Source: a virus. Taken from it: a stretch of 26,404 nt of DNA. Location of the stretch: positions 1 to 26,404 of the IMG/VR virus record IMGVR_UViG_3300030104_005155; one strand, written 5' to 3'. Below, piece by piece: positions 5,647 to 24,799 of this stretch. The notes beneath the pieces are model-generated. The model did not search any database. It was not told the origin of the DNA and saw nothing but the letters and a program-made list of their open reading frames with translations. How positions within the stretch are numbered: the first letter of the stretch is position 1; every line of letters starts with the position of its first letter. The position numbers were made by a program, and so were the translations under genes.

Positions 5647-8600
5647 TCAAGTGATGTAATTCTTAAATTTAAGCGGAGCAGATCTTTCAACCCTCATTGA
5701 GGTAGTAATTCCGAGAACACCGTCATTAGTGTATGCGGTGTAACTATTTAATCCTGCCCTAGAAGCGAGTGATGCCCTACCCCAACTATATTCACCAAAA
5801 CCTGCGACAGTAGATTTGGTTTGTGTGGTAATTCCTAATGCTTCTGACCTATCAAACGAATCATCAATATTGACAGACACCCTTCTACAAACTGTAGTGC
5901 CAATTCCTACACCAGCCGCATCTAAACGAATTGTTCTTTCAATGTTTTCGGCAGCCGCAACAACATATACATTATCAATATGAGACTTACCAACACCTGC
6001 TGTGTCACCATTGGGTGCGAGTGATATAATTGATGTTGTTGCCATTCCCACGTTAGAATTAGAAACTATGAAATAATCATTTACTTGTAATCCACTCAGG
6101 GTTGCTGCGGTTGAAACCAAGGAAGTATTTCTTAGTGCAGAATCAAATGGGATGTGCAGGTCAAATACAAACTGTGTAGTGACACCCGCGTTAATTGTTG
6201 TAGTTCCGAATCCAACAATAATTCCAGAGTCGCCCACAATGTTAGATGTGTTTACTAGGTTCTCCTCCTCACTATAACCTGGTTCACTTATCAGAACGAC
6301 GGGTGGGTTTGTATTTGTATATCCAGTTCCAGCGTTTGTAATTGTGACGGAAGAAATAGTTCCACCAGCACTTATAACTGGATTCGCTGTTGCTGTGACA
6401 AGACCGGCAGAAGGAACACTTTGAGCGATTGATCCGACAACCACCACGGCGGTGCTATATCCAACACCACCATCAGAAATAACAATGGAAGAAATAGTAC
6501 CAGTATCACTTACAACAGCAGTTGCGGCTGCTCCTGAGGTGACTGTCTGGGATGCGAACCTTATCTTTTCCTGGAATTGAAGCGAAACATTATTTTCGTT
6601 CTGTCCATTAAAGAGAGGTCTCATCCGATCAACATAAATTTCTGTTGATCCAATACCAACAGACTTGGTAATATATGCGTATGGATGAATTTGGGGTTCA
6701 TAAAGTTCCCTATCTTTACCAACACGTTTTAAGTTAACAAGTTTGTCTTCTGTCTGTCTACACCACTTGATCCTTCTCGTCAGAGTTTCATCCTCAGTAT
6801 TTCCTGGACCAAAATATGGATATGTTTGAACTTGGTCGGTAGAATTGACATTAGTTACTGTTCTTGCTTCCTCCTGTAAGGTTGAATCTTGACCAGCATT
6901 AGCATCATATCCAATGGTCAGGGTATCACCTTCTTTAACAGTTTCAATAACCTCTCTAAAGATAACATCCTGATCATCTCCGGTTCCCTTGTAGAAAATA
7001 ATCTTACAACTATCGCCAACTTTTGGTGGTTCAGTGAATCTGATTACACTACCACCTGGGAACTCATAACCCTTTCCAGGTTCCTGTAAAATATCATTAA
7101 TGGTTACGATGAGAACTTTTTCAACATCAACTTTAGATCCTCTTGGTGATCTGATAGAGATTTGTGACCCGGCAAGGGTAAGGTTAAATGCTCTAGTCGC
7201 TCCATCAAAAAGAACTGATGGATCATCGAGCATTTGAAGAACACCAACACTCCATCCAGTAAACTCATCAGAGAATACCTTCTGAACTGTCGCTTCAAAG
7301 TTGTTTCCGGTATACTGTTGTGTTGTAGGAATTCCAGTAAGTCCACCAGTTGGAATGGTAAGAATCTCACCTTCCTTATATCCGACACCCTTATTATTAA
7401 TAGAGAAATCAATAACACTAGACCCCTGACCAACGACAATATCGATAGTTGCGTTCAATCCAGAGTTTGCCGCACCAACATAATTAAGTGGAATGTTAGT
7501 GTAAGAAAGTGGGTCATCAACAAACAGGGACAGTGGTCTACTGACCTTACCACACCTATTATAGAAGTGGGGACATGTTGAGATTCCCGTATTTACAACG
7601 AACTGGGTGGGAGAAAGAACTGCTATAACTGAGGAACCACCGGACGCGAAGTCATTTCCACTAGCAGACTTATTCTTCTTCCTTGGCGCATTAACAATCG
7701 CACCCTGTATCGTTCCACTATCCTTATAGAAGGTTGGAACTGTTGAAGGACCGGTGTTAACGACAAACTTAGTAGAATTAACAATCTCAATAACCCGAAC
7801 TCCGCAGAATGCGGGATCAGTTGTTCTTGGATAAAGGTGTTCGGATGCTCCATTATCAAGACCACAAGTGAATGCGAGACCTGTCAATACAACACCTTTA
7901 CCAACCTGTAAGAGGTGTGGTGTTGCTGTGGTGATTGTAGTAACACCAGTTAAATTATTATAATCGGCATCAGAGACATTAACAGGTGGAGCATAAGAAC
8001 AGGTAAATGCGATACCAGATAACTTAATTGCTTCACCCTCAGTCAATCCATGAGCAGTAGATGTGGTAACTGTGGTGATTCCCGTAATGGAACTATATCC
8101 AACGTTAGTGATTGATTTTGTGGGATAGAACCTTGGAGTAGAATTATTTGTTACAGATATAGCAGTTGAAACGTGTCCATTGATAATGGTCGCAAATCCA
8201 ACATGATATACTGAGGTTTCAACACCAACACTTGTAGAGGCAGCACTAACATTAACAAATCCAATCGGAGGACTATCTACAACAATACGGGCTTGAGTGC
8301 CTGTAGGAATTCCTACAGTCAGTGCCTGAGTTGAGAGAACTCTAGCAAAGGTTGATGAGGAAGATACGATAGTTCCTCCATAATAGGCATCAGCAACTCT
8401 TCCAAATTCAATCGTACAGTTAGCTCCTGTATTCAGTTGAGGTAAGAGATCAAGAACGCTTCCCGTATTAGGGATGAATATTTCAGTAGATCCAATACCC
8501 ACAAACTCATTTGTTTTGACCAGGAATTCATACTGATCAGCAACCCTATATCCTGATCCAGTATTACCAATCGAAACATCTGTGAGGACACCAACGTTAG

Positions 8601-11600
8601 TAACCTTAGCAGTTGCTCCAGCAGAAACTAGAGGTTGATAACCAAATCCTTCTGTTGATCCAATAGAAAGGAGAACACCGCCAAGAGGTAAGTTTGTAGT
8701 ATTAGCATCTGTGGTTGTAGAGGTTGCGGTTCCAGTAAAGGAGATAGTGGTGATACCAGATACTTCACCCATGGTAAAGTCTCTGGTGATTCCAGGACCC
8801 TGTAAAATATCATTAATCAGGATAATCGCATTTCCAGTAGAAATTCCAGAAACATCCGATGATCCACCGGCAGACAATGGATATGTGTCAGTGTTGCCAT
8901 CAAATTTACCTGAGATACTATCAAAGAGGTAGTTTGTATGATAGGTGTCGGTTGAGGTTCCTGTGACACCCGATCTCATAAACATTCTTCCCTGGAAGGA
9001 GGAACTTGAAGAAACACCTTCCCAATCCCTTTCATCGGGCCTATTTGTTGTACTACCAATGGGTTGACCACCATAAGGTGCTTCGGCAAAATGAAGGACA
9101 CTTTCAGTAATGTTGTAGTTTCCGACAACTTTAGTTACTGGATCCCCAGTATTTGCGGTGCCAACCTTTGTTCCTAATTGAGCTCTTTTTACAGTAAGTC
9201 TATTTGTGCTTCCAACACCAACAGCGGTGATTTTCATAATCTCATTACCAACCTGAACAAGATCAGAACCGAAGTAAGATTGTATACCACTCAGGTTGAT
9301 AGCATTATCAACAGTGGTAACATTAGTGGTGAGTCCGGTTGTCTGTGATGTAGCAACAATTGGAGATTGAATCAAATTGTCAAGTGCGAGCAAACATCTT
9401 GAGTTTTGATTGGTTGCCACAAATCTATGTGAGGTTCCAACTCCAACACTTGCGATTTCCATAGGAATCGCAATTTTCTTAAGTGCATTTTCTGCCGAAG
9501 ATGCGAGTTGAATCCTATCATCACCAAGTTTAATCGCATAAAGATCAGTCTCAATGGGTAGGAAGGTTGTATTGCCAACCCCAGGAATATTTGTCAGACC
9601 AATACCAATGGAGGATGTAATACCACCATTTCTGTCATAACGAATCCTTTCTCCAGAAACAAAGAAGTGATTTGGAATTCTAATGCTATTAGCATCAACA
9701 CTAACAATGGAGGAGTCATCTCCCAAGAAATACTTCTCAAATATGGGTGCTGATCGATGCTCCAGCATGAAGGTTTTTCTAACAGCATTCTCTGTTCCTT
9801 CATACCTTGCGTAGTTAGAGGTAAGGAATCCATTACCAAATTCTCTATCATCCCTACTATCATCCTCAATCCTAAGTGCCTGCGTGTATACTTTAACATC
9901 AACACCAATATTTGCTTCTGGTGTAAAGGTTAGAGATATCCCACCACCAGCATTAAATCTGGAACCAAAGGTTCCAAGTCCACTTATATACGGCATCGGT
10001 GTATCAGTTTCTACAATACCAAATTCCGTAAGTTCTAAGTCCCCTGTTCCATCCTCATTACTATCAGTGTCCATGAGAACAATTTCTCTCATCTCATAGG
10101 TATCATTTGTGGTATCGGTTATTGATACCATGAAATACGCTGAATCATAGATGAAGTTGTATTCGGCAACGGTGGTTATGCCTGGAGTTCCTGAGGATGC
10201 GATTGTTGTTGATCTACCCTCAAGAAGGGCATGTTTCATCTGATCTGTGCTAATTCCAGATATTCCATCAGTTCCAAAACCAATCCTCACGGTATTAGAA
10301 GTTAGCGCAGCACCAACACTTGGTATAAAATCAACTTTTAGTTGATTACTATCAAGGTATGCGAAGTATGTTCCAAATCCAGGTCCGGTGAAGGATGTGC
10401 TATTTTCATTACTTACCAATCTACCAAATTCAGTTATACTTACATTGGTATCATCATGAATAATGTTTAATTCGTCATATTGGTGATCAATACTGTTCTC
10501 ATCAGAAATGAGAGCCATAAGTTTCATTGATCTGGTTGTAGCAGCAGTCGATACCACATTTGTTCTAGATCCAGCACCCGCAGGAACAGCAACGCTAGTT
10601 GTGCGAATGTCTACGGCACCATTACCCAATACGATAGAGGTTCCTAGACCAACAACATTATCATCCAGATGATATGCGAGACTTACGAGTTGATAATCGT
10701 TAACAGCAAATTTTCTAGGGAAGAACTGTAGGGATCCTTGTGTTCCAGAGATTGTAAAATCAAAATCACCAAGATCATTGATGGAATACATTCTTCCATA
10801 TTGGTTCATGAATGCGATCTGTCCATCCTGAATCATGGACACTATTCCAAATTGCCTTTCACTAGTAAATCTTTCATCCTTAAAGTAGATGAAATACTTA
10901 AGGAATCTACTTTGAGTAGCATTAAAACTATCAATGAGGGTAAATCTGGTTGCCCTTGGATTGCTATTAAACTGACCACTAAAATCATCAAAATCAACAG
11001 CTCTATTTCCGAATGACTCAAAGAAGTCTGTTAGAATTCTACTTGAGAAAATAATTTCATCGGAAAAGACCTGTCCAGAAGCATTAAGTGAATTTTCTAA
11101 TGCCAGATCAAAATCATAGAAGCAATTAAAGTCTCCAATGCTATAGAGATCATTAACCACATCAAAGTATGAGAGTTCTGTGGACAATCCAACCCTCATT
11201 GAGTTCTGTTGAACTTCACTGAAATCTGCTGGAGTTTCTAATTGATAATCACAGAATTTCTGGAATCCTGCTGTATGATTTGTCGTACTTACTACATCAT
11301 TCCAGGTATCAAAATTAACTCTTGATCTCAATGAATATGAGAAGTTCTGATAATAGAAACTATCCTGAATTCTTTGTATATTAGAATTAAGGAACCCAGA
11401 ATCAGTGGTGGATCCTCTAACAACCCTTGATGACGCATCAAGAGTGAGATTAGACTGATATACAGTCACCTCATCGGCAACTCCTTGAGTTTTAGAAGCG
11501 AGTCCTTCAATTACCTCACCCTCTACGAAGTTTTTGGATGAGGAAACTCTAAGGGTTCCACTCTTTCTATCCCAACTCTCTACCCTTCCTGAGGCAGTCG

Positions 11601-14600
11601 AAGATCTGACTTCTTCACCATTAAGGAAATTGTTATCTTTAAGTAATATATTAAATTTGGGGAAATGTCTTTCAGAGATAACTCTTCCAGCAGAATTGAA
11701 TTTGTCGAATTTACCAACAAATTCACCCTTAGACTCATCAAACAAACCATCAAGAGAATAACTGAAGGTAGCTCCAACTCCACCCAAATTCTTATCTACA
11801 AAGATAACAGGGAATAATTTGTAATTGTGGTCGATTGAGTTATACCCTATTCCGGTAGAACCGATACCCACACTGATATTTTCAATCAGAATCTTATCAC
11901 CAACCTCAACAGGGAAGTCTTCACCAGCACTATATCCGGTGTCTAATTCTACGGTTACTTGTTTAGTAACTGTATTGAATCCAACCGTGCTGATTCCACA
12001 TCCGTTGCTGTTATTAATTGGTATAATGTTGGGAAGAGTATTACTCATTCCCTTTGTATTTTTAAGGATGGTTACCTGATCGTCACCAAGATCATAATCA
12101 AGATCCACATCAGTGATGAGTTGATTGGTTTTTCCATCAAACGCTAATAGTCTTGGCGCTGAGGAATAACCTTTTCCAGCTGAAGTTATCCCAATAAACT
12201 CAAAGGATTTTAATGATCTGATACTAATCAGATTGGGAAGTGTGATGGATGGTCTAAGTGTTTTATCTGAAGGGAAATCATACCCAATATCTTTGATTTG
12301 AGTTTTAGTTATTTTTCCAATCAGATCACTTTCGGATTCTAAAATTGCTCCTACTCCTCTAGAAGTAGTAACCGTGTTGATACCGGGTAGTGATTGGTAT
12401 CCCTTTCCAGGGTTTATAATTTCAATCCTTCTAATTGGACCATCTGTATGGGTACAATCAGTTTCATATGAAAGTATAGCAGAGGAAGTTGTAGAGATAT
12501 AAGATGCTTTCTCTGGGGTTGGACCCATACTAAAACTGAATGAATTTGGTCCAGCAACGGAAATTTTATGCTTTCCATTGTAGATACTCTCCGCAACAGA
12601 CAAGGTGTTGTTTTCATGAACCTCATCATCAATGTTAACTTCCGATTTTACTTCAGGAACATCACCACTTTCATATGTTGGGTCAAGTCTATAATATATT
12701 TCGGAAGGAGTTTTATCATTAACAGTTAAAGTAACTACTGCATTTGAATCAACACCAGGTGTTCCATTTCTAGTTAAATCATATCCAGTATTACCAACTT
12801 TTCCAACATACTTGTTAGTAAAATTCCTGTCAGCGTATAGGTTAAATTCAAAGGATGCGTAATCTGTAGACTGAATTTCGTGGGAAAGGGTTGAACTCGA
12901 TAAATCAAATGTGACTGTAGAATCTTTATATACTTTTAATGGAGGGTTAATTGGATTAATTGTACCACCATCACCAGTGCTTCCAATTCCCACCGTAGTT
13001 GGAATCGGGTTGACAGATTTCTCAAATGTTTCAGAAAGTTTGAAGGTATTCTCATCAACTATGGAAACATAGTAAATTTCATTATCAGTAAGTCCTTCAG
13101 TGGGATTACTACTGTCTGCGGTATAAACAATCTTTTGCCCATCAATAAATCCATGCTTATTGAGGGTGATGGCATCAGTTGAAGTGTTAATTCCAGTGGA
13201 TGTGTATGACCTAGCGTCTATAATCAATTTTCTATTAAAATCATTGTAAGAGACCTTAAACGCAGATGTCACACCTGGATTTACATCTAGAGTTATCTCA
13301 TGTCCAATATGGATTCCATGGGTCACCGCAGTAGCTACAGTAACTGTATTCCTGCTAATATCTCCAGTGATAACACTATGATTAGTTTTGAGACTATGCT
13401 TAACTCCGGTTCCTATTCCAAGGAAGGAGACAGTGGTAATGGTGTCAATACCAACCACACCCTCATATATTCCGGTGGTTCCAAGACCAACCCTAGCGGT
13501 TGCTAATCCAATGAGATTATCTGCAATCTTAGCTACAAAGAAGGTAGTCCCATCGGTGACTGTCTGTCCAATTCCAATAAGACCAAACGCAGATGGATCC
13601 GCGCTATAATTAAATCCACCACCAGCGAGAGTGCTGGTGTGATTATCTTGGGCAATGAGTGCTTTTCCTCCATTTACTGAATAGGTGACTCTATCGCCAG
13701 TCTCAAGACCATGATCCTTGATAAAAATGGTTTTGGTTGGTATTGTAATAGAAGTCGCACCACTTCCAGGATTGTTAAAGAAAATGGTACTTCCAATACC
13801 AACTCCACCAGTGCTTCCTAATCCAACAGATTCTACTGGATTAAAGTATATCTCCTTGTTTACCCGATAATCAATATCAGTTTTAAACCCAGCAGAGATA
13901 CTAATTTTTCTCTGAGTAATCGTTGCTGCGGTTCCGACAGTGTGGGCAACTCCAACGACACCATTTATAGATCTCTCAACCCTAACCCGCGATAGACGTT
14001 TATCAACATTGAGAACCCTTACCTGTTCGGTTCCAATCTCAAGGATGTCATTTTCCCTAATATTTGGATAATTAAGATTTCCAGTTAGGTTAAAGTGTGT
14101 GACCACCCCTGTAAATTGAGCGGTTCCAATACCATTGGTCGAAACCCCTACACCAGTAACCTTAAACACATCTGAACTGATACCTATAGAGTAAGTACCC
14201 TCTAAATCTGATGCACTTGTTGATAGTCCACTTATTGTTACAATATCCGCATTATTAAACTGATTTGGGTTTTCTGAGAATATAAGATACTTCCCTTTCC
14301 CATTGGGATAGAATTCAACATTCTGAATGGAACTAGTTGCAACACTTACACTATCAACAGGTCTTCCTAAGACGTGTGAGACCCTCGCAGAAACGCCTCC
14401 ACCACCTGTTGCGACCTCATTAAATACGATTGTGTCCCCTACCTTGTAATTATCTCCACCGGTATTAATAGCGACCCTATTAACTCCACTTTTTGTGGTA
14501 TTTTTAACTTCAATTTTTTGACTTAAATTTCCTGGAAGAGAAAGATACTTATACTTAATATCTTGGTCGTCAAAGAAATTGTATGGAGAAGTATTTTTTA

Positions 14601-17600
14601 TATAATTGGTTGAGTTAATCTTATAAGCATCTTGGTTTGATACCTTTTGGAAGTTAAACTCATTTACTTTTGCGTGGAAATTTTCTCCAACCAAATACGG
14701 GAATTTCGGTCTTCTAAAATTCGTAAATGGAGATTGTGTATCTGCCTCGTCAGTTGCTACAGTGGCAAAATAAGCATAAGTTCCGTTAGGATACTCTGGA
14801 GTGATACAATGTCTTCCGTTGTTTTCATCGAGACAAGATTCACTAGATTTGTTCTCATAAACAAAATCATTAACAAAGAACCCAGATGGCCATATTGTCA
14901 GAGGAGGTCTTTGATCCGCATTTGCTCTTTCAACATATCCAGACTCCATAAGGGTGACTGCTCCACCAGATCTAGTGGTGTATCCGTAAGGTCCATAGAT
15001 CGGGTGACCATCATATGACCATCCAATAATTGGGGAATGGTTTTGTGAGATTGCTTCTTGTTTAGTATTGACGTTTATTTCCAGATCAGACTTTCCATAA
15101 AGTTGGTTACCATCACCATCAACAGAATATACCAATTCTCTTAATTTTCTTGGAGCATATATGTGGCAATACTGCATGCCAAAATCTTCGTTCGTCCCCG
15201 TTTCAATTACCGCATCATCATCACCGAGAGCAAAAAGATATTTTTGGAATAGATTAACTCTCCATGTTTGTAGTTTTGCTTTTAATACCTCACCATCACC
15301 TGGATGAATGATATTAATACTGGTCGTGCTCTGTACGTATCCTGCACCAGGTTCAATAACTTTAACTTCAGTCAAAGTACCATTGTTCAGTATTGGAGTG
15401 ACAACAGCACCAAGACCTTCTCCTATAATTGAGATATCTGGAGGGGAGAGGTATTGTCTACCAGAATTTAGTACAAGAACTTCCTCTATTCTTCCGTTGT
15501 TAATAATTGCTTGACACTGTGCATCCTCTCCAGGGACTGCTATAACAGAAGGAGATCTATCAAGGTTTAAAACTTCGGACGCGCCGTAACCGACACCACC
15601 ATGTGACAAATTAACTGATGTAATCTCTCCTCTAAAGATTGGTTGTAGTTCTGCCTCAAAAGTTTCTAAACCAATAGAGGATATGCCAATCTGGCCAGAA
15701 ATTGTTACAGAAATGTCAGGATAGTTAAAACTATGTGTTCCAACACCTATGGATTCTAAATCAATATATTGATTGGTTTCATAGAAAGTTTTCTTCGTTG
15801 CCGTAGTCAGTCCGACATTTGCTAATCTAAATTTACTATCGTCTAATTTAATGACATAATATTGACTACCATCAGTCAAACCACTAACGGGAGTTGACCC
15901 AGCAGTGTATTTTATTAACTCACCAGATTTATAATCATGATTTTTAATTTCAATGCAATTTTGTGAGGTGCTTACACCAGTCAATGCTGGAGCAGATCTT
16001 TTCTTATTTTCATATCCAATACCACCAGAAATAACTGAAACGGATTCTACAACTGATTTTTTATTTACAGTTTGGAAACTATGGGTTCCAGATCCATGCG
16101 ATAGTAATACTACAGTGTTAATTCCAGATATAACATCAGCAAGACTATTATGTAATTTGATTGTAGTATTATTAACGGTTTTGGCAAAATACTTCGCATC
16201 GGTTGTTAATCCACCAACACCAGGCTGACTACTGGTCCTATAAATGACATGTTCACCATCTCTAAATTTATGGAAGGTTGAGAATCCAATTGTAGAGGTG
16301 GCACTACCGGTGCTAATACCAGCAGATGCTTTATCAGAGAAGAATGAAGCTGAGTGATCAATCAACTTCATATTTGCTCTAGCAACTGCCCCAGAACCAT
16401 TACCACCAGTGATGTTAATGATCGGATCCTCATCATAATCAAATCCTGGATCAGAAACCCTTATATTTTCTAGGGAACCAGAAACAGCGATGTTTCCGGT
16501 GGCACCTGTTCCTACTTCATCACTAATGAGTAGATTTGGTGGATCAATAATATCAAAATTTTGTCCAGAAGCAAGAACTTCAATGTCCTCAATCTTGCCG
16601 TGATAAACAACATCAGGTGCCTTATAATTTAATATCTCAACACCATTGACGAGAATTCCAGTAAATCCAGGTTTTGTTGGAGTTAAAAATCCGGTATGCT
16701 GAGCACGTTTTGGAATCTCTCTTAAAAGTTTTTGTCCCTGTAAGTCCTTTCCTTGGAAAACAAATGGTTTTAATGTATTATTAGTTACTGTAACAGAACT
16801 CTCAACATTTACAAATTGATTATTGTAAACATCATTCCTACTCTTTGCTAATTTAACACTTGAATCAGATAATCTCTTAACATAGTACAAACCATCCGGG
16901 AAGTTAGCACCCAATGATTCATTTCTAAGTTCTCTTACCTTACTTGATCCATCATAATCAATATATGCTTCTGTTGTGATTCCTGCCGAATAATATACAG
17001 CATCTCCTGAATGAAAATTATGTTTTGTTCCAGGAGAGATAACTAACTCCTCCCCTAAAAATGTTCCAGAGAAAGTGACTGATCTATCTGTAGCATTAAG
17101 TCTTGATCCAAAATATGAAGGTATGGATGAAGATGCTACAAGGAAATTATCTGGACTATCAAAGACAGCCTGGACATTTGCTTGGTGTAACTGAGCTGAG
17201 GGGAAATTAGCAGCATCACCACTCAGTACGACTCTTGCGATATAGTATGTGACATTAGGATTTAAAGGACCAGATCCTTTTATGGAGATTGATTTTTCAG
17301 AGTTAACCGAATATACCACACCTCCGGCAGCGATGACGCCATTAAGGGTGACTATATTGATTTTATCACTTTCTTTAAAAAAGTGTTTCTGATTTAAAAT
17401 TAATTTGTAACTATTATCAGAGGAGTCTAACAGCGAGAAAGAATTAACAAGATGATTGGATGCAACGTTATAGATCCAATTATTAAATCTGAAGTCATCT
17501 TTACTATCGCCCAGAGTTTTAATCTGTGCAATATCCCCATCTCTGAAATTCTTGGTATCTGTTGGATATACGAAATCACTGATAACTGAATTAATTCTTA

Positions 17601-18846
17601 CTTTAATAATCTCTTCTTGATTACGGAAAGATCTTCCATAAGCAAAAGTATTGATACCGATGGTTGCAGCATCAGATATCGTTCCTGTAATATTACTACA
17701 TCCAAAAAACTGAGTGAAGTTTTTTGAGGTATAAGATACGATTCCAATTGTTTCATCATTATAAGTTACGGTCAATTCTCCAGTTGTTCCAAAACCAACA
17801 GTGGAATCAACAAAGAGGGTGGTTTCTCCAGCACCAATCTGTCCGATTATTCTGGTTTTAGGATGAATTCCAAATGCTCCACGAATCGCACCCTGAACCT
17901 CAACGTCCCTATCATATCCACCATCAAGTCTTAGTTTATAAAAACTACCTGCTACTCCTACTCCTGTTCCGATACCTACATCAAATACCTGAAGTTTTTC
18001 TACTGAGGTAATCGGAGCATATGCCTTTACAAGACCAGCATCATCATACTCATCCTGAAAAAGGGTTGCTTGCTCAAGGTCTAAGGGATCACCCTCATAA
18101 GACTCAACAACCAAATCATTCGTAATTCTAAAATCAGAGTTTGATGGCGTAAAGAGAAATTCTCTTGGTTTGACTACGGTTACGTCCTCATTATATAAAG
18201 CTCTAAACAGGATTTTAAATGAGGCGTCGGTTCCCCTACTCAGATAAAAGTCTTTAGACTGTTTAATGAATAAATTTTGATTTAATTCATCAACTAATGG
18301 TCTTTCGTCAAGAAGGGGTAAAAATTGATGTTTTGTTTTTATTAAAAACTCTTTTAGGAATAAATTGCTCAGGTTTACAATCTTAACACCTTTTTGGTGC
18401 TCTTCCCTTAGTGATTCGGTAAATACTAATCTTTCTTGATTTGCTAATTCTTTTTGAGAGGTAGTTCCAGAGAAACCTCTAATACAACCAGTAAAGGATG
18501 ATTTTGTTTTTCCAGTATATGTTATAACTTCATCATCAATTTGAATTAATCCATAAGAATCCGGGAATCCATCAGTTCCCGTTCTAGTTTGACCGAAGTC
18601 AACACCTATGGTCGTGTCATATTCATCAATGTCGTCTAACAAAATAACAGAATCATTGAGACCCGTTGTTTCGTCAAGTTTAATATAACGATCAATATTT
18701 TGAATCAAATCAGCAGGAGCACCCTGAAATTCAAGTGCCTGATAATATGATTTTAAAAATTCAGAAATAAGGGGGAACTCATCCCTAACATAATTGGGGA
18801 GCTGGTTCTGAACTATGTTGTTAAACTGAACTCTTGTTTCTGACAT
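5647..18846 (-). CDS. Giant baseplate structural protein in the gp7 position, YHYH-type
   Basis: 4399 aa, half of this window. The N-terminus (MSETRVQFNNIVQNQLPNYV, then LISEFLKSYYQALEFQGAP, and FIKQSKDFYLSRGTDASFK near residue 200) is the conserved start of cyanophage proteins annotated as gp7-like wedge initiators or YHYH structural proteins. A YHYH-type segment (SPIIGWSYDGHPIYGPYGY) lies near residues 1270-1288. The rest is modular: about thirteen turns of the form GxGYxxxP (for example near 800, 943, 1082, 1165, 2148, 2225, 3429, 3820, 4125, 4168) and about seven YYV...FKLA modules (near 537, 657, 895, 1002, 1775, 1930, 3110). A different, F/D-rich section spans about 2490-2740. No signal peptide or membrane segment was seen. 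T4 gp7 is 1032 aa, so this is four times larger. It starts 8 nt after the gp6 stop, without a clear ribosome site. The role (virion baseplate wedge or periphery) is inferred from position; receptor contact by the modular part is possible but unproven. Confidence 0.9.
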   Translation of the reverse strand: MSETRVQFNNIVQNQLPNYVRDEFPLISEFLKSYYQALEFQGAPADLIQNIDRYIKLDETTGLNDSVILLDDIDEYDTTIGVDFGQTRTGTDGFPDSYGLIQIDDEVITYTGKTKSSFTGCIRGFSGTTSQKELANQERLVFTESLREEHQKGVKIVNLSNLFLKEFLIKTKHQFLPLLDERPLVDELNQNLFIKQSKDFYLSRGTDASFKILFRALYNEDVTVVKPREFLFTPSNSDFRITNDLVVESYEGDPLDLEQATLFQDEYDDAGLVKAYAPITSVEKLQVFDVGIGTGVGVAGSFYKLRLDGGYDRDVEVQGAIRGAFGIHPKTRIIGQIGAGETTLFVDSTVGFGTTGELTVTYNDETIGIVSYTSKNFTQFFGCSNITGTISDAATIGINTFAYGRSFRNQEEIIKVRINSVISDFVYPTDTKNFRDGDIAQIKTLGDSKDDFRFNNWIYNVASNHLVNSFSLLDSSDNSYKLILNQKHFFKESDKINIVTLNGVIAAGGVVYSVNSEKSISIKGSGPLNPNVTYYIARVVLSGDAANFPSAQLHQANVQAVFDSPDNFLVASSSIPSYFGSRLNATDRSVTFSGTFLGEELVISPGTKHNFHSGDAVYYSAGITTEAYIDYDGSSKVRELRNESLGANFPDGLYYVKRLSDSSVKLAKSRNDVYNNQFVNVESSVTVTNNTLKPFVFQGKDLQGQKLLREIPKRAQHTGFLTPTKPGFTGILVNGVEILNYKAPDVVYHGKIEDIEVLASGQNFDIIDPPNLLISDEVGTGATGNIAVSGSLENIRVSDPGFDYDEDPIINITGGNGSGAVARANMKLIDHSASFFSDKASAGISTGSATSTIGFSTFHKFRDGEHVIYRTSSQPGVGGLTTDAKYFAKTVNNTTIKLHNSLADVISGINTVVLLSHGSGTHSFQTVNKKSVVESVSVISGGIGYENKKRSAPALTGVSTSQNCIEIKNHDYKSGELIKYTAGSTPVSGLTDGSQYYVIKLDDSKFRLANVGLTTATKKTFYETNQYIDLESIGVGTHSFNYPDISVTISGQIGISSIGLETFEAELQPIFRGEITSVNLSHGGVGYGASEVLNLDRSPSVIAVPGEDAQCQAIINNGRIEEVLVLNSGRQYLSPPDISIIGEGLGAVVTPILNNGTLTEVKVIEPGAGYVQSTTSINIIHPGDGEVLKAKLQTWRVNLFQKYLFALGDDDAVIETGTNEDFGMQYCHIYAPRKLRELVYSVDGDGNQLYGKSDLEINVNTKQEAISQNHSPIIGWSYDGHPIYGPYGYTTRSGGAVTLMESGYVERANADQRPPLTIWPSGFFVNDFVYENKSSESCLDENNGRHCITPEYPNGTYAYFATVATDEADTQSPFTNFRRPKFPYLVGENFHAKVNEFNFQKVSNQDAYKINSTNYIKNTSPYNFFDDQDIKYKYLSLPGNLSQKIEVKNTTKSGVNRVAINTGGDNYKVGDTIVFNEVATGGGGVSARVSHVLGRPVDSVSVATSSIQNVEFYPNGKGKYLIFSENPNQFNNADIVTISGLSTSASDLEGTYSIGISSDVFKVTGVGVSTNGIGTAQFTGVVTHFNLTGNLNYPNIRENDILEIGTEQVRVLNVDKRLSRVRVERSINGVVGVAHTVGTAATITQRKISISAGFKTDIDYRVNKEIYFNPVESVGLGSTGGVGIGSTIFFNNPGSGATSITIPTKTIFIKDHGLETGDRVTYSVNGGKALIAQDNHTSTLAGGGFNYSADPSAFGLIGIGQTVTDGTTFFVAKIADNLIGLATARVGLGTTGIYEGVVGIDTITTVSFLGIGTGVKHSLKTNHSVITGDISRNTVTVATAVTHGIHIGHEITLDVNPGVTSAFKVSYNDFNRKLIIDARSYTSTGINTSTDAITLNKHGFIDGQKIVYTADSSNPTEGLTDNEIYYVSIVDENTFKLSETFEKSVNPIPTTVGIGSTGDGGTINPINPPLKVYKDSTVTFDLSSSTLSHEIQSTDYASFEFNLYADRNFTNKYVGKVGNTGYDLTRNGTPGVDSNAVVTLTVNDKTPSEIYYRLDPTYESGDVPEVKSEVNIDDEVHENNTLSVAESIYNGKHKISVAGPNSFSFSMGPTPEKASYISTTSSAILSYETDCTHTDGPIRRIEIINPGKGYQSLPGINTVTTSRGVGAILESESDLIGKITKTQIKDIGYDFPSDKTLRPSITLPNLISIRSLKSFEFIGITSAGKGYSSAPRLLAFDGKTNQLITDVDLDYDLGDDQVTILKNTKGMSNTLPNIIPINNSNGCGISTVGFNTVTKQVTVELDTGYSAGEDFPVEVGDKILIENISVGIGSTGIGYNSIDHNYKLFPVIFVDKNLGGVGATFSYSLDGLFDESKGEFVGKFDKFNSAGRVISERHFPKFNILLKDNNFLNGEEVRSSTASGRVESWDRKSGTLRVSSSKNFVEGEVIEGLASKTQGVADEVTVYQSNLTLDASSRVVRGSTTDSGFLNSNIQRIQDSFYYQNFSYSLRSRVNFDTWNDVVSTTNHTAGFQKFCDYQLETPADFSEVQQNSMRVGLSTELSYFDVVNDLYSIGDFNCFYDFDLALENSLNASGQVFSDEIIFSSRILTDFFESFGNRAVDFDDFSGQFNSNPRATRFTLIDSFNATQSRFLKYFIYFKDERFTSERQFGIVSMIQDGQIAFMNQYGRMYSINDLGDFDFTISGTQGSLQFFPRKFAVNDYQLVSLAYHLDDNVVGLGTSIVLGNGAVDIRTTSVAVPAGAGSRTNVVSTAATTRSMKLMALISDENSIDHQYDELNIIHDDTNVSITEFGRLVSNENSTSFTGPGFGTYFAYLDSNQLKVDFIPSVGAALTSNTVRIGFGTDGISGISTDQMKHALLEGRSTTIASSGTPGITTVAEYNFIYDSAYFMVSITDTTNDTYEMREIVLMDTDSNEDGTGDLELTEFGIVETDTPMPYISGLGTFGSRFNAGGGISLTFTPEANIGVDVKVYTQALRIEDDSRDDREFGNGFLTSNYARYEGTENAVRKTFMLEHRSAPIFEKYFLGDDSSIVSVDANSIRIPNHFFVSGERIRYDRNGGITSSIGIGLTNIPGVGNTTFLPIETDLYAIKLGDDRIQLASSAENALKKIAIPMEIASVGVGTSHRFVATNQNSRCLLALDNLIQSPIVATSQTTGLTTNVTTVDNAINLSGIQSYFGSDLVQVGNEIMKITAVGVGSTNRLTVKRAQLGTKVGTANTGDPVTKVVGNYNITESVLHFAEAPYGGQPIGSTTNRPDERDWEGVSSSSSFQGRMFMRSGVTGTSTDTYHTNYLFDSISGKFDGNTDTYPLSAGGSSDVSGISTGNAIILINDILQGPGITRDFTMGEVSGITTISFTGTATSTTTDANTTNLPLGGVLLSIGSTEGFGYQPLVSAGATAKVTNVGVLTDVSIGNTGSGYRVADQYEFLVKTNEFVGIGSTEIFIPNTGSVLDLLPQLNTGANCTIEFGRVADAYYGGTIVSSSSTFARVLSTQALTVGIPTGTQARIVVDSPPIGFVNVSAASTSVGVETSVYHVGFATIINGHVSTAISVTNNSTPRFYPTKSITNVGYSSITGITTVTTSTAHGLTEGEAIKLSGIAFTCSYAPPVNVSDADYNNLTGVTTITTATPHLLQVGKGVVLTGLAFTCGLDNGASEHLYPRTTDPAFCGVRVIEIVNSTKFVVNTGPSTVPTFYKDSGTIQGAIVNAPRKKNKSASGNDFASGGSSVIAVLSPTQFVVNTGISTCPHFYNRCGKVSRPLSLFVDDPLSYTNIPLNYVGAANSGLNATIDIVVGQGSSVIDFSINNKGVGYKEGEILTIPTGGLTGIPTTQQYTGNNFEATVQKVFSDEFTGWSVGVLQMLDDPSVLFDGATRAFNLTLAGSQISIRSPRGSKVDVEKVLIVTINDILQEPGKGYEFPGGSVIRFTEPPKVGDSCKIIFYKGTGDDQDVIFREVIETVKEGDTLTIGYDANAGQDSTLQEEARTVTNVNSTDQVQTYPYFGPGNTEDETLTRRIKWCRQTEDKLVNLKRVGKDRELYEPQIHPYAYITKSVGIGSTEIYVDRMRPLFNGQNENNVSLQFQEKIRFASQTVTSGAAATAVVSDTGTISSIVISDGGVGYSTAVVVVGSIAQSVPSAGLVTATANPVISAGGTISSVTITNAGTGYTNTNPPVVLISEPGYSEEENLVNTSNIVGDSGIIVGFGTTTINAGVTTQFVFDLHIPFDSALRNTSLVSTAATLSGLQVNDYFIVSNSNVGMATTSIISLAPNGDTAGVGKSHIDNVYVVAAAENIERTIRLDAAGVGIGTTVCRRVSVNIDDSFDRSEALGITTQTKSTVAGFGEYSWGRASLASRAGLNSYTAYTNDGVLGITTSMRVERSAPLKFKNYIT
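7530..8110 (-). repeat. Tandem module duplication inside the giant gene
   Basis: Around residues 3580-3770 the protein repeats paired modules: SITGITTVTTSTAHGL with FTC, then NLTGVTTITTATPHLL with FTC; and FVVNTGPSTVPTFY, then FVVNTGISTCPHFY. The pairs align without large gaps, indicating local duplication. Boundaries are approximate. Confidence 0.6.
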
Positions 18847-18854
18847 TTTTTATA

Positions 18855-20993
18855 TTAGTAACCTGATGAATAACCGCCGCCACCGCCGCCACCGGAAGAT
18901 GGAGAAGGGCTAGGTGATGGTGTTGGTGATGCTGCAGAACCTGCGGTGGTCCCTCCAGTGGGTGTAGGTGTGGATGAGGATGTGCTACCTGATACGGTGG
19001 CAAGCGTTGTATTACCAGTTGCTGTGGTAGTGGTTGTCGTCGTGGAGACTGGAACACTACCCCTACCACCAGGACGTACTAGAACGCCATTTGCATAACT
19101 TGAAGATACTATGTAGTTAGACGCTGAGGGATCAACCCCAGAAGCAATTTCATCAGTTATAGTCTCAAAAGTGCTATTCGCAACATCTAACTGTAAATAG
19201 AGATCCTGTAATCCAACCACATCATTTGAAACTGGACTACCGGATATTTCAATAATTGTTTGACCAGTTTTTGTTTTACCTGATAAAACGTTTATTGGAT
19301 TCAATGTCAATACACCCCTCTTGTAATCAATCGTTCCAATGTTCCTTCTAATAATAGTAGGACTTGATGAATTTATGGATGGTACAGAGAATAGGAATAA
19401 TTCACCTGTTTCTTTATCCGTATTTGGTAAATCTGAAATATAAACGTCAGATCCGATACCATCAACCCTGAACGCAGAGGTTTTAATATTATATCCACTC
19501 ATTCTCTTAATATAGAAAGAGTTTCCAAAACCAATTTGATATTCGACTAAAGCATTCAATGCTACTCTTAAATCACGTCGCATCTGAATAGTTGTAATAT
19601 TAGATGTAACAGATTCATGACTATCATCAATTACTTTCAAGAATTTACTATACTTGAACCTTGCTCCATACTTATTTAACTCCGTTGATTCAGAGTATTT
19701 TGTGATATTATTTTGAACCAGTGTTGACACCAATTCTGACGTAGTTGCCAGATTTGTGTTGTAATATATCTTACTATCGCTCTCAAGATACAGATATTTC
19801 AGATCAAGTATCTCTGGTACAATACCAGCAACAGAATATTTCTTTAATCTTGTTTTTATATTCTCTTTAATCAGGTTTGGCAGGTAATCGCCAAAGGTTG
19901 GTTTGATACTGATGAAAACCTTTCCATATTGGGGAGGAACCAGCTCCTCACCACCAAAAACTGAGATGGATTCCGTTTCCGGGTATATTTTTGCTGGAAT
20001 AAGTGTTTCATAGTCATTAGAAGTCAATGCCCTGTTCTGTGTGGCATATATTCTTGGTGCGAACTTCTTAATTGACTCAACCGTTTCAATATTCTCACCA
20101 CCAGAGGAAACAAGACCCGTGCTAACGAGTGATATTCCCGAGGTTACATTAAATTCGACCCCATTCCTATTATATACCACCCTACCGGCAAAACTGAAGT
20201 TTGAGACGCCATTTGCGGCATCACCATTACTTACGATGTAATTTGCGGTAATATAGTTACCTTCCTCAAGTGCTTTTCCAAAAACACCGTCTCCGAAAAT
20301 CAATTCATATCTCTCATCGGAGATTTCCTGAAGATAATAGACTTTTGATTCCGGGTTAACATCAAAAAGACTATCCTGAAGGGAATATTTTGCTCCTACC
20401 GTGGCAAATTGATTATTTTTAACCGTAACACGGATTAATTCAGTATCAATACCAGCATTTGGTAAAATATACTTCTGATTTAAGTTTGTAGAGGATTTTG
20501 TAAAGTTCGACTCTAAAAGAACACCCTCATAAATCAATAAATCATCAAAATTCGCAACACCGCCAAATGCGGGGACGGTTACATCCTCTAAAATCGAATA
20601 TATGAACGATTGTCCGGCAAAGTTTCCAGAAGACGATGCTACAACACCTTTTTTAAGTGTAATTGTTGATGGTGCCGGAGATACGTCCGAAACATCAACA
20701 CTAAAACTGATAGATGATAATGCCGACTTCCTTGATCTAGGAACATAACCAATATTTCTTGCGAGGGCAACAACATTCTCCCTTAAAGTCGCACTATCAA
20801 TAAAAACCTCATTCGCAACCATGTTTGCGTTGTATGAGGTAATATATGTGTTGTATGCCAAAAGGTCTAGGATCGTTGAAAGGTTCGATCCTTCAAAATC
20901 ATAATCCGTAAAGTTGGAATTTGACTTTAGATACTCTCTAAGTGATGTTTTAATCTGGTCAAAGTCCAGATTGGCGAAATTTACTAACTGCAT
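18855..20993 (-). CDS. 6: Baseplate wedge subunit gp6
   Basis: 712 aa. The start MQLVNFANLDFDQIKTSLRE, then ILDLLAYNTYITSYNANMVA at 41-60 and SATLRENVVALARNIGYVPR at 67-86, is the diagnostic opening of T4-type gp6 and baseplate-J-like wedge proteins. ELIFGDGVFGKALEEGNYI at about 230-248 and ALTSNDYETLIPAKIYPE further on are also family hallmarks. gp6 forms the inner ring of the baseplate wedge with gp7 and gp53. T4 gp6 is 660 aa; this protein adds a C-terminal low-complexity tail from about residue 640 with a threonine run, PTPSPSPSPSS and seven glycines, ending YSSGY. The ATG lies one base after the gp25 stop (TAAC ATG), so the two genes are translationally close and probably coupled. Confidence 0.95.
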   Translation of the reverse strand: MQLVNFANLDFDQIKTSLREYLKSNSNFTDYDFEGSNLSTILDLLAYNTYITSYNANMVANEVFIDSATLRENVVALARNIGYVPRSRKSALSSISFSVDVSDVSPAPSTITLKKGVVASSSGNFAGQSFIYSILEDVTVPAFGGVANFDDLLIYEGVLLESNFTKSSTNLNQKYILPNAGIDTELIRVTVKNNQFATVGAKYSLQDSLFDVNPESKVYYLQEISDERYELIFGDGVFGKALEEGNYITANYIVSNGDAANGVSNFSFAGRVVYNRNGVEFNVTSGISLVSTGLVSSGGENIETVESIKKFAPRIYATQNRALTSNDYETLIPAKIYPETESISVFGGEELVPPQYGKVFISIKPTFGDYLPNLIKENIKTRLKKYSVAGIVPEILDLKYLYLESDSKIYYNTNLATTSELVSTLVQNNITKYSESTELNKYGARFKYSKFLKVIDDSHESVTSNITTIQMRRDLRVALNALVEYQIGFGNSFYIKRMSGYNIKTSAFRVDGIGSDVYISDLPNTDKETGELFLFSVPSINSSSPTIIRRNIGTIDYKRGVLTLNPINVLSGKTKTGQTIIEISGSPVSNDVVGLQDLYLQLDVANSTFETITDEIASGVDPSASNYIVSSSYANGVLVRPGGRGSVPVSTTTTTTTATGNTTLATVSGSTSSSTPTPTGGTTAGSAASPTPSPSPSPSSGGGGGGGYSSGY

Positions 20994-20994
20994 G

Positions 20995-21396
20995 TTACCT
21001 TGTTGGCTGCAAGACGAATTCTAATTGCTGTGCTGGTATATCCGCACCGATAATGTCATATACGATTTTTACATCAAAAGCATTACCCACAAAATCGGGT
21101 GTTGTTTTCACCGACCTTAATCTTACCCTTGGTTCAAATCTACTAATCGAGGATTGAATCTCATCCCTGATATTAGATGCTGTTAGGTCATCAAGATTGT
21201 CAAATAACAACCTTGATACCCTTGAACCAAAACTTTCATTAAAGGGTTTTTCTCCAGGAAAGGTAAAAACTATATTTTTGATTGAACGGGCAATCGCATT
21301 CGCATTTTTGAGCAAGATTAAATCGTCATTCAAGGGATTTTTCTTGAATGACATACTCACATCTCTAAAACCCTGACTTACCCTTTCTAAAGGCAC
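20995..21396 (-). CDS. 25: Baseplate wedge subunit gp25, gp25-like lysozyme fold
   Basis: 133 aa, starting MPLERVSQGFRDVSMSFKKN, with PLNDDLILLKNANAIARSIKN at 21-41 and the conserved PGEKPFNESFGSRVSRLLF at 47-65. It matches the GPW/gp25 family, and its length agrees with T4 gp25 (132 aa). gp25 is a wedge protein beside gp6 and, in contractile injection systems, helps nucleate the sheath; the lysozyme-like fold name does not require enzyme activity here. The start is GTG at 21394-21396: the next in-frame ATG would remove the first 14 conserved residues. No strong Shine-Dalgarno is visible. A GATAAATA octamer overlapping the stop of the preceding gene, 22 nt upstream, could be its late promoter. 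Confidence 0.95.
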   Translation of the reverse strand: MPLERVSQGFRDVSMSFKKNPLNDDLILLKNANAIARSIKNIVFTFPGEKPFNESFGSRVSRLLFDNLDDLTASNIRDEIQSSISRFEPRVRLRSVKTTPDFVGNAFDVKIVYDIIGADIPAQQLEFVLQPTR

Positions 21397-21618: not shown

Positions 21619-21774
21619 TTAGTCCTCGATCAGGATTGATTTTTGAGTTGCGGGGTCCCAGATCTCAGATTCCTTGACCTTATCGGTTTTTTTGGGTGTT
21701 AAATCGTCATTTGAGAGTTCACGGAGCATTTTTTGATGCTGATCATTTGCTAGGTTGTCTAAAAAGTCGTTCAT
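21619..21774 (-). CDS. Small acidic phage protein, 51 aa, unknown function
   Basis: Translation from the ATG at 21772-21774 gives a 51-aa protein starting MNDFLDNLANDQHQKMLREL, continuing through SNDDLTPKKTDKVKESEIWD and ending SILIED. It is highly charged and soluble-looking, with no recognised domain. Its ATG overlaps the TGA of the 240-aa gene (ATGA), and its own stop is followed after one base by the ATG of the 66-aa gene. This tight packing supports it as a real, translationally coupled member of the late operon. Confidence 0.78.
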   Translation of the reverse strand: MNDFLDNLANDQHQKMLRELSNDDLTPKKTDKVKESEIWDPATQKSILIED

Positions 21775-22493
21775 TTTTCTAAAAAAGGAGTGTGATCGGT
21801 GATTTCTCTAAATCTTTCGTTTGTGGGATCGGTTTTTTCCTCAATTTCGCGTTCCTGGGCTGTTTTCCAGAAATATTCGTCCTCACGACCCATCCCAAGT
21901 CGCTCAAAACCGTTCTCAACCTGATAATATTGGGTCGAAACCTTAAAATCAGGCATCTTTGGATCAACAGGTGTCAGACTATTGTCATAGATCCGCATCC
22001 TATTGTTAGGATACAGCGCATATTGTCCATTTTCAAGTTCGATCAGGTTATGTGACTTGTGTTCTGCTGGATTTTCACTCGTCGCATAGTCAACCACCTC
22101 AGGATCCTGATGATAATTGTCAATGGTACAGATATATGTACCCTTCTGGGTGCCAAAGTCCCTTGTATACAACTCATAATCCATCGAACCGATGAATTGC
22201 TTCGTGATCGATACGACCCCGTAATCCATACAATTCCAGAATTGGAGGTTAGGTAGGTTCATATCAGGTGAGGGCGTCTCAGGGGCGCTTACGAAGGCAC
22301 TGATAGGCAATTTATCATACATTGCCGCATACTCAGGTAGATAGGTCTCAAAGTAAAAGGTACGTCCCGGTATCGATTTACATGATACCCAGACACCCTT
22401 CACAAATTCACCGTGACCTGATTGATGATCGGTGAGATATTCCTTACGAACCCAGACCTCAACCGATGGGAGGTTACAAATAAGAGCTGCCAT
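21771..22493 (-). CDS. Conserved phage protein next to gp25, 240 aa, probably late structural or assembly
   Basis: 240 aa, starting MAALICNLPSVEVWVRKEYL. It contains HGEFVKGVWVSCKSIPGRTF (about 27-46) and FETYLPEYAAMYDKLPISAF (about 48-67), and ends in a charged tail (WKTAQEREIEEKTDPTNERF). It has many aromatic residues and reads as a compact globular protein without signal peptide or membrane segment. I recognise it as a conserved neighbour of gp25 in cyanophages but cannot name a function. A TATAGATA late-promoter-like octamer lies 20 nt before the ATG, directly downstream of a hairpin terminator, so it probably opens the late baseplate operon. A virion or assembly role is inferred from position. 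Confidence 0.88.
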   Translation of the reverse strand: MAALICNLPSVEVWVRKEYLTDHQSGHGEFVKGVWVSCKSIPGRTFYFETYLPEYAAMYDKLPISAFVSAPETPSPDMNLPNLQFWNCMDYGVVSITKQFIGSMDYELYTRDFGTQKGTYICTIDNYHQDPEVVDYATSENPAEHKSHNLIELENGQYALYPNNRMRIYDNSLTPVDPKMPDFKVSTQYYQVENGFERLGMGREDEYFWKTAQEREIEEKTDPTNERFREITDHTPFLEK

Positions 22494-23829: not shown

Positions 23830-23884
23830 AGTTTTTACCTCCGGGAATTTTTTTTCTGGACGGGAATTTTTTTTTTTCGTTTTA

Positions 23885-23892
23885 TATCTATA
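23885..23892 (-). promoter_or_regulatory. Possible late promoter TATAGATA before the 69-aa gene
   Basis: Minus-strand TATAGATA, one mismatch to the T4 late consensus, 56 nt before the TTG start. If the upstream extension of the 69-aa gene is truly coding, this octamer simply encodes part of YRYK and may not be a promoter. Confidence 0.33.
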
Positions 23893-24004
23893 GGTCGATT
23901 TGTCACCTCTGTAGGTTACGGGGACCCATTAATTTTATATCACGCCCGCCGCCGATATAAACGAACGCCCCATAATAACTGTCTGTTCACTGATACCCTC
24001 CTCC

Positions 24005-24033
24005 ATCATATCACGGAGGCAAACTGATGTCAA
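24005..24033 (-). promoter_or_regulatory. Sigma-70 promoter upstream of the 69-aa gene
   Basis: Minus-strand TTGACA (24028-24033), 17-bp spacer, TATGAT (24005-24010): a perfect -35 and a 5/6 match at -10. The predicted start near 23998 gives a leader of about 170 nt before the TTG, or about 70 nt before the out-of-frame ATG at 23929. Confidence 0.75.
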
Positions 24034-24070
24034 CCCCCGTGTTATAAAGTATCACTAATGAACTGCTAAT

Positions 24071-24247
24071 CTACCATCTGACAGGTGTGCTCAGGTCCTC
24101 TACGTAGCTATCAATCACATGCTCAGATCCTTCCAGTTCAAACAACTGATGCCAGTCAATCTGATGGGGGTTGAAGTCCTCTAAGGTCTCCAATTCTAGC
24201 GTAATTCTATATCGCTGCTTCTGTGCCTGACTGATAACGACTGACAT
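24071..24247 (-). CDS. Small cyanophage protein, 58 aa, unknown function
   Basis: Translation from the ATG at 24245-24247 gives a 58-aa protein starting MSVVISQAQKQRYRITLELE, continuing TLEDFNPHQIDWHQLFELEG and ending DLSTPVRW. It is acidic, with no membrane segment; the YRITLELETLEDFNP stretch suggests a beta strand followed by a helix. No domain is recognised. Two promoters precede it, a perfect sigma-70 site and a perfect T4 late octamer, implying expression both early and late. The Shine-Dalgarno is weak. Confidence 0.75.
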   Translation of the reverse strand: MSVVISQAQKQRYRITLELETLEDFNPHQIDWHQLFELEGSEHVIDSYVEDLSTPVRW

Positions 24248-24276: not shown

Positions 24277-24305
24277 ATTATAGAATACCAGAGAGATTCT
24301 GTCAA
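24277..24305 (-). promoter_or_regulatory. Perfect sigma-70 promoter for the 58-aa gene
   Basis: Minus-strand TTGACA (24300-24305), 17-bp spacer, TATAAT (24277-24282), exact at both hexamers. Predicted start near 24270, about 23 nt before the ATG. It lies just downstream of a late promoter octamer. Confidence 0.85.
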
Positions 24306-24317
24306 CCTGCTGTCAGG

Positions 24318-24325
24318 TATTTATA
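24318..24325 (-). promoter_or_regulatory. Perfect T4-type late promoter TATAAATA
   Basis: Minus-strand TATAAATA matches the T4 late promoter exactly (the site used with the late sigma gp55 and the sliding clamp in T4). It stands in non-coding DNA 71 nt before the 58-aa gene and 12 bp upstream of that gene's sigma-70 -35 hexamer, making a tandem late/early arrangement. Confidence 0.72.
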
Positions 24326-24376: not shown

Positions 24377-24405
24377 TTGACATTTCTGCGGAGTGGTGAT
24401 AGACT
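24377..24405 (+). promoter_or_regulatory. Plus-strand sigma-70-like promoter with no gene downstream
   Basis: TTGACA (24377-24382), 17-bp spacer, TAGACT (24400-24405; 4/6) with a TGN immediately before the -10 (extended -10). It is the only promoter-like site found on the plus strand and points into the DnaA-box cluster and AT-rich tract, where no plus-strand gene exists; it could yield a non-coding or priming transcript. Confidence 0.45.
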
Positions 24406-24447
24406 GCTCGCCAAGATCACAAGACCTGAGTACATTAAAATCAATAC

Positions 24448-24491
24448 TTTTCCACAATTAGGCATAGTTTTTCCACACACATTGTGGAGAA
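24448..24491. other. Cluster of three DnaA-box-like sites
   Basis: TTTTCCACA occurs at 24448-24456 and again at 24469-24477, 21 bp apart (about two helical turns); TGTGGAGAA at 24483-24491 is an inverted 8/9 match. TTTTCCACA is the DnaA-box form known from cyanobacterial origins. Boxes 2 and 3 also form a TCCACA/TGTGGA hairpin. Next to them lies an AT-rich tract. The function is inferred. Confidence 0.5.
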
Positions 24492-24570
24492 CTATAAACA
24501 ACGCATATACATTTAAAAAACCTTTTTTAATATAAAAAAAGACTAATCTTTATATATTCTACCAAAAAAG
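24492..24570. other. AT-rich tract, candidate DNA-unwinding element
   Basis: A run of A/T-dominated sequence with several A or T stretches of six or seven, directly beside the DnaA-box-like cluster. AT tracts in phage intergenic DNA are common, so it gains weight only from its neighbours. Confidence 0.4.
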
Positions 24571-24588
24571 GGGCAAAAAATGCCCCTT
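24564..24588 (-). terminator. Intrinsic terminator ending the right-hand small-gene block
   Basis: On the minus strand AAGGGGCA, a 5-nt T loop and TGCCCCTT form an 8-bp stem, continued by further Ts to give a six-T run. The T-tract is on the minus strand only, so it ends leftward transcription from the small-gene block, 63 nt after the last stop. Confidence 0.85.
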
Positions 24589-24626
24589 CGGTGTCCCACT
24601 TACTTACTTAAACAAAAGAAGTTTAA

Positions 24627-24642
24627 TGTCTTACTTAGGACA
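24627..24642 (-). repeat. Octamer hairpin, copy 1, after the 30-aa gene
   Basis: Minus-strand TGTC-CTAAGTAA-GACA: 4-bp complementary arms around the octamer CTAAGTAA, 8 nt after the stop of the 30-aa gene. Its partner at 24784-24799 keeps the octamer but has different complementary arms. Confidence 0.5.
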
Positions 24643-24743: not shown

Positions 24744-24783
24744 GGGTTTGTGTTAGTTAAGGTGTGAAGGGTAAGCAGTTTAG

Positions 24784-24799
24784 AGACTTACTTAGGTCT
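24784..24799 (-). repeat. Octamer hairpin, copy 2, after the 53-aa gene
   Basis: Minus-strand AGAC-CTAAGTAA-GTCT, 6 nt after the stop of the 53-aa gene. Same octamer as copy 1, but the four-base arms differ while remaining complementary, which suggests selection for an RNA hairpin. Confidence 0.5.

Follow-up and report, generated by a model that had tools for sequence, protein, structure and literature searches.

A conserved antisense promoter and AT-rich block, usually accompanied by DnaA-type boxes, as a candidate replication origin of marine T4-like cyanophages

The window analysed here, that is, the whole stretch of DNA under study, is a 26,404-base virus fragment from IMG/VR (IMGVR_UViG_3300030104_005155). 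Almost all of its genes are carried by the minus strand, and T4-type baseplate genes are present, namely a gp8-like gene (4056-5606), gp6 (18855-20993) and gp25 (20995-21396). Between the gp8-like and gp6 genes, at the position of T4 gp7, an open frame of 4,399 amino acids was observed (5647-18846, minus strand), which is very large for a baseplate protein. The protein family encoded at 21771-22493 (minus strand) bears the PHROG label ferredoxin, whereas in S-SM2 and SynMITS9220M01 the corresponding gene carries the annotation purM at this position; one of the two labels is probably wrong. By DNA, the nearest named relative is S-SM2 (Kyanoviridae), which matched 66% of the tested 2.9 kb at 74%. 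A tRNA scan of the window found none.

The element described below lies in a gap bounded by small genes, with ends near 24247 and 24657. The first-pass annotation had called it the only large non-coding gap; it is indeed the largest non-coding stretch of the window, but not the sole one, as positions 23830-24070 are also open. On the minus strand, a divergent sigma70 promoter, TTGACA-N17-TATAAT (24277-24305, 12/12 match), drives the leftward genes, and a T4-type late promoter word, TATAAATA, is seen in the sequence at 24318-24325; the late-promoter motif of cyanomyoviruses is NATAAATA (PMC2984593). A 24-nt direct repeat (AAG.AGTTTA....CTTACTTAGG) was also observed at 24616-24639 and 24773-24796, the two copies being 157 bp apart and flanking a small minus-strand gene.

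On the plus strand, pointing against the surrounding genes, a sigma70-type promoter (P), TTGACA-N17-TAGACT, was located at 24377-24405 (10/12 match). Its -35 hexamer TTGACA (24377-24382) is followed after 17 nt by the -10 hexamer TAGACT (24400-24405), with the TG of an extended -10 at 24397-24398; the promoter is present as it had been described, and no credible plus-strand gene follows it in the window, again in agreement with the earlier description. A GC-rich discriminator and a conserved 5' leader (GCTCGCCAAGATCACAAGACCTGAGTACATTAAAA) extend over 24406-24440 on the same strand, and transcription would start at about 24411-24414. P and its leader are the most conserved bases of the element. 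TTG[AC] is found at the -35 in 126 of 128 related cores, and TTGACATTT is kept at positions left free by the core search pattern. In 77 non-redundant loci, the conservation of the leader includes the unselected positions +24 and +34 to +40, and the end of the leader, CACATTTAA, is kept at positions outside the constraint of the search pattern.

The leader is followed by three DnaA-box-type sites. Two of them are exact copies of TTTTCCACA, the known cyanobacterial form of the DnaA box; they lie on the plus strand at 24448-24456 and 24469-24477, which confirms the pair spaced by 21 bp from start to start that had been reported. The third site, TTCTCCACA (8/9), is inverted (24483-24491, minus strand) and lies about 8 nt before the AT-rich block. 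This site had been presented as an additional box and is indeed there, but it is not independent of site 2, because the two together make up an inverted repeat able to fold into a hairpin, ATAG-t-TTTTCCACA-cacat-TGTGGAGAA-CTAT (24464-24495). The inverted pair was also considered as an intrinsic terminator and rejected, as no T-run comes after it on either strand.

Beyond sites 1 and 2, no further exact TTTTCCACA was present in the 26.4-kb window, and these two compare with a mean of 0.6 expected from 300 first-order Markov simulations of the window. Two exact copies within 40 bp were found in none of the 300 simulations, and the analytic chance of such a pair is about 5e-4. One-mismatch box words were at background (12 found versus 12.8 expected, no excess), so that the signal lies in the clustering and not in the words. 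No second cluster occurs in the window, and S-SM2 and S-BM3 likewise have a single one.

Next to the boxes, an oriented AT-rich block (D; AACGCATATACATTTAAAAAACCTTTTTTAATATAA) occupies 24500-24535 on the plus strand; it is conserved, as followed with an nhmmer profile, and is probably an unwinding element. In the nearest-neighbour stability profile of the whole window, the least stable DNA lies at 24505-24565, and the AT tract ranks first in instability for windows of 50 and 60 bp, starting at 24505-24506. The AT-rich tract noticed beside the boxes on first pass is thus borne out, with the lowest stability of any 50-60 bp in the window. The D of S-SM2 belongs to the top 0.02% of that genome for instability. 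The D profile was matched at 62 of the 77 loci, always on the plus strand and 57-240 bp past the core, with almost no matches elsewhere in about 580 kb. On the minus strand, an intrinsic terminator (AAGGGGCATTTTTTGCCCCTT then TTTTGG; 24568-24588) would stop an incoming operon before D, and an opposite-strand terminator beyond D was detected at 32 of 69 loci versus 1 of 159 control stretches.

Over 100 IMG/VR contigs and hundreds of Kyanoviridae records, including those of S-SM2, S-PM2, Syn9 and S-RIM2, carry homologous elements. The core pattern search in IMG/VR gave at least 119 stretches, and the comparative set consists of the 77 non-redundant loci already mentioned, one of which (L093) is a probable chance match. 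When at most two mismatches were allowed, the core had one match in each of 10 out of 11 complete genomes; in the remaining one, Sf-FS3, BLAST revealed a diverged copy. The element occupies 200 places in 198 records. It sits in a small-gene island beside baseplate genes; its neighbours in Syn9 and S-SM2 are a helicase gene on one side and the baseplate wedge genes on the other. The position of the element is about 52.5-52.7 kb in Syn9 and about 19.2-19.4 kb in S-PM2. A blastn search with the gap of the window matched intergenic stretches of about 12 Synechococcus phages, several of which share the promoter and leader alone. The element, previously unremarked, appears to be carried by almost every marine T4-like cyanophage, once per genome.

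A diverged version was recognized in S-PM2, Syn9, S-CAM22, S-IOM18, S-RIM2, S-RIM32, Syn1, S-RIM8, Syn33 and S-SSM4. Here TTGAC(A/T) is separated by about 14-15 nt from a GCTAAG leader, after which come an AT stretch and then either two inverted boxes or a triple; in Syn9, TTGTG stands instead of TTGAC(A/T). The string TATATTTTTTAATACATTTTTAAT is common to the D of S-PM2 and to S-SCSM2R, which belongs to the first class. By blastn, the S-IOM18, S-PM2 and Syn9 versions matched 198, 72 and 176 phage records, respectively; these sets overlap and nearly all of the records are cyanophages. In S-PM2, a tRNA-Asn and a tRNA-Leu are annotated over the element (19177-19333; L198:3178-3334); these are probably false calls, and the place is free of features in the more recent S-PM2 record. 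The small ORFs annotated over the element in Syn9 and Syn1 are doubtful.

Among the 77 loci, the density of TTTTCCACA reached 4.22/kb immediately past the core, compared with 0.88/kb on the upstream side and 0.016/kb elsewhere, which corresponds to an enrichment of about 260-fold next to P, and an unbiased 7-mer ranking gave as top words TTCCACA and TTTCCAC, part of a TTTTCCACA-containing motif; since the loci are related, these enrichments reflect shared descent as well as selection. An exact TTTTCCACA is present in 47 of the 77 loci. The usual order of the boxes is direct-direct-inverted, then D. In 34 loci a box comes before D; the closest such box is inverted in about 25 of these, its end being 7-10 nt away from D. 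A few further loci have it overlapping the D edge, and in a minority D precedes the boxes. Boxes also recur in divergent versions of the element.

A search for the boxes in homologous gaps of related phages had been suggested as a check, with gaps retained but boxes lost as the refuting outcome. About half of this outcome applies: the boxes are kept in most of these gaps, but 29 of the 77 loci have the promoter, and usually the AT block, with no recognisable DnaA box, and so do five isolates (Bellamy, Sf-FS3, S-SCSM2R, S-RSM4 and S-CAM4). Therefore, the promoter and the AT block constitute the common part of the element, and the box array is swappable. In six box-less loci (L057, L074, L078, L102, L116 and L121), the boxes are replaced by TTCTCAAT-type words, which form direct-direct-inverted or direct-inverted arrays in the box position beside the AT block; S-RSM4 has an array like these. 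Two or more such words were counted in 12 of the 77 loci versus 2% of control stretches. An array of the TTCTCAAT word was also seen in L206 (about 1082-1125), and in L028 repeated GTGTTACA words stand in place of boxes 20-180 bp past the core, possibly as another array type.

On the host side, WH7803 encodes one DnaA. Its chromosome has no excess of TTTTCCACA (14 sites versus 15 for the reversed word). Beside its dnaN, only the near matches TTTTCCACG and TTTTCCCCA were found, and the dnaN regions of WH7803 and RCC307 contain one-mismatch versions only (TTTTCCACG, TTCTCCACA). The host oriC was considered as the source of the boxes, for which the dnaN region offers near matches only. Away from dnaN, an inverted pair of exact TTTTCCACA, 44 bp apart, was observed at 1819368-1819420 of WH7803 (L299:1069-1121). 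It had also been considered that cyanophages lack gp59 and thus need DnaA for helicase loading, an idea which was dropped, as Syn9 and P-SSM2 carry gp59. Judged from the boxes, host DnaA appears to be a likely partner of the element without being a universal one; its involvement is probable for the window phage and not general.

With its antisense promoter, its AT block and its usual DnaA sites, the element is built like an origin and is therefore a strong candidate replication start. The first-pass annotation had already proposed an origin here. The recurrence of the promoter, boxes and AT block, with a conserved layout, in the homologous Kyanoviridae gaps considerably strengthens this proposal and widens it to the family, except for its DnaA part, which is not universal. 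From the sequence, we consider it fairly probable that the gap is an early replication origin, in which a promoter transcript and a melting element would act with host DnaA bound to an array of two direct boxes and one inverted box. P, as a host-RNA-polymerase promoter, would fire counter to the gene direction, through the box array and into the unstable D. The transcript, probably as an R-loop at D, would open the duplex and supply the primer for the T4-type replisome. In the window phage and in most relatives, host DnaA would occupy the two direct TTTTCCACA boxes and the inverted box beside D, where it may help to melt D or time the firing, and the minus-strand terminator would keep the incoming operon out. 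What the sequences establish is the anatomy, its conservation, the presence of about one copy per genome and the instability of D; from these we infer origin function, R-loop priming and DnaA binding.

This proposed mechanism can be compared with known systems. Replisome genes are common to T4 and the cyanomyoviruses (PMC3016281, PMC2984593). T4 oriF consists of a promoter and a DNA unwinding element (DUE) and is primed by an R-loop (PMC3016281). As in T4 oriF and oriG, the present element belongs to a T4-like phage and has a promoter firing into an unstable element, which is the arrangement of a T4-type R-loop origin. However, T4 has several origins and relies on MotA middle promoters, whereas the element has an unmodified sigma70-type promoter and about one copy per genome, and adds an array, of DnaA boxes or of an alternative kind, which lies between P and D or next to them. 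The TTGACA -35 is conserved, which does not fit a MotA-dependent middle promoter, and cyanomyoviruses are without motA (PMC2984593). As an origin, the element would depart from the multi-origin MotA scheme of T4.

The element also resembles the basal unwinding system of bacterial oriC (DnaA boxes beside DnaA-trios/DUE) by its oriented DnaA-type boxes, clustered in the window and, at the 25 or so loci mentioned above, separated from the unstable AT block by a short and fixed distance. As to DnaA-trios, a short tract was seen between site 3 and D in the window. In contrast with oriC, it is phage-borne and tied to a conserved promoter, its boxes are swappable or absent, and it is not next to dnaA/dnaN. 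The GC-skew switch of an oriC was not seen: in six complete relatives, neither GC skew nor third-codon-position skew changed polarity at the element. The skew thus lends the origin no support; such a switch is not required in phages that later replicate by recombination. Lambda ori and P1 oriR are phage or prophage origins aided by host DnaA or transcription, as is proposed for the element; they differ from the element, beside which neither an adjacent initiator gene (O, RepA) nor its iterons were seen.

According to a review, a single theta origin was predicted for Syn9 (PMC2984593), and the element would likewise provide one origin per cyanomyovirus genome. In the literature searched, the predicted Syn9 origin was not linked to the conserved element or to DnaA boxes, no marine cyanomyovirus was found to have its replication origin described at the level of sequence, and nothing relevant to cyanophage origins or to DnaA boxes in these phages came up. 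As the parts of the element are defined in culturable phages (S-PM2, Syn9, S-RIM2), the replication start and its dependence on the host initiator are directly testable. A second origin was considered at 101.6 kb of S-SM2, where a third copy of TTTTCCACA is close to the point of lowest stability in the genome; it was rejected, as this region is coding and is without P or D. The TTTTCCACA in question adjoins a late-promoter-like gap.

In their distribution, P and D look like a common module and the boxes like a replaceable one. More tentatively, and with a chance that we would put somewhat below even, all versions may represent one shared modular origin with a common promoter/leader and AT block, whose array has been re-keyed between DnaA (TTTTCCACA), TTCTCAATA-type inverted and other repeats. 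If true, phage replication would be licensed by different initiators via the same scaffold. The retention of P and D in most box-less loci is also what would be expected of a pure T4-style R-loop origin, which would need no more than P and D, the boxes being accessory or the target of a factor other than DnaA; T4 oriF requires the promoter and DUE only (PMC3016281). Against this, the boxes are strongly enriched, positioned beside D and recurrent in divergent versions of the element. Such an origin seems rather unlikely to us, and the weight that we give it overlaps with that of the DnaA-assisted origin, because it is a variant of the latter.

The strong conservation of P and leader could instead reflect a regulated early transcription unit with no replication role, in which P would produce a conserved small ncRNA, or else, as may be the case in some phages, an mRNA for the plus-strand gene that comes next, and would be tuned from the array by DnaA or a different host factor. 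Plus-strand genes do come after P in S-BM3, S-8S53/55/56 and S-PRM1, but the window, S-SM2 and Bellamy have none downstream of it. Furthermore, folding of the leader RNA revealed no excess structure (mean z -0.13; -0.83 for the longer transcript) and Rfam gave no match, so that a structured RNA at the locus is unsupported, the box hairpin excepted. As this explanation also leaves unaccounted for a conserved, oriented and very unstable D with boxes at a fixed distance, it is considered unlikely. A datA-like sink, in which the array would titrate host DnaA and block initiation on the host chromosome as phage copies build up, would agree with the clustering of the boxes at one place and with a presumed rise of phage copy number in infection; it is quite improbable, since two or three boxes make a weak sink and P, D and the fixed spacing would stay unexplained. 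Finally, the background frequency of one-mismatch words in the window would agree with boxes that arose by chance in an AT-rich gap. This reading is refuted by the family-wide conservation and by the clustering chance calculated for the window alone, and its probability is negligible.

The leader (ATCACAAGACCTGAGCACATTTAA-like) is present two or more times after the core in L041, L049, L057, L086, L114 and L126, as if the leader were itself a binding site.
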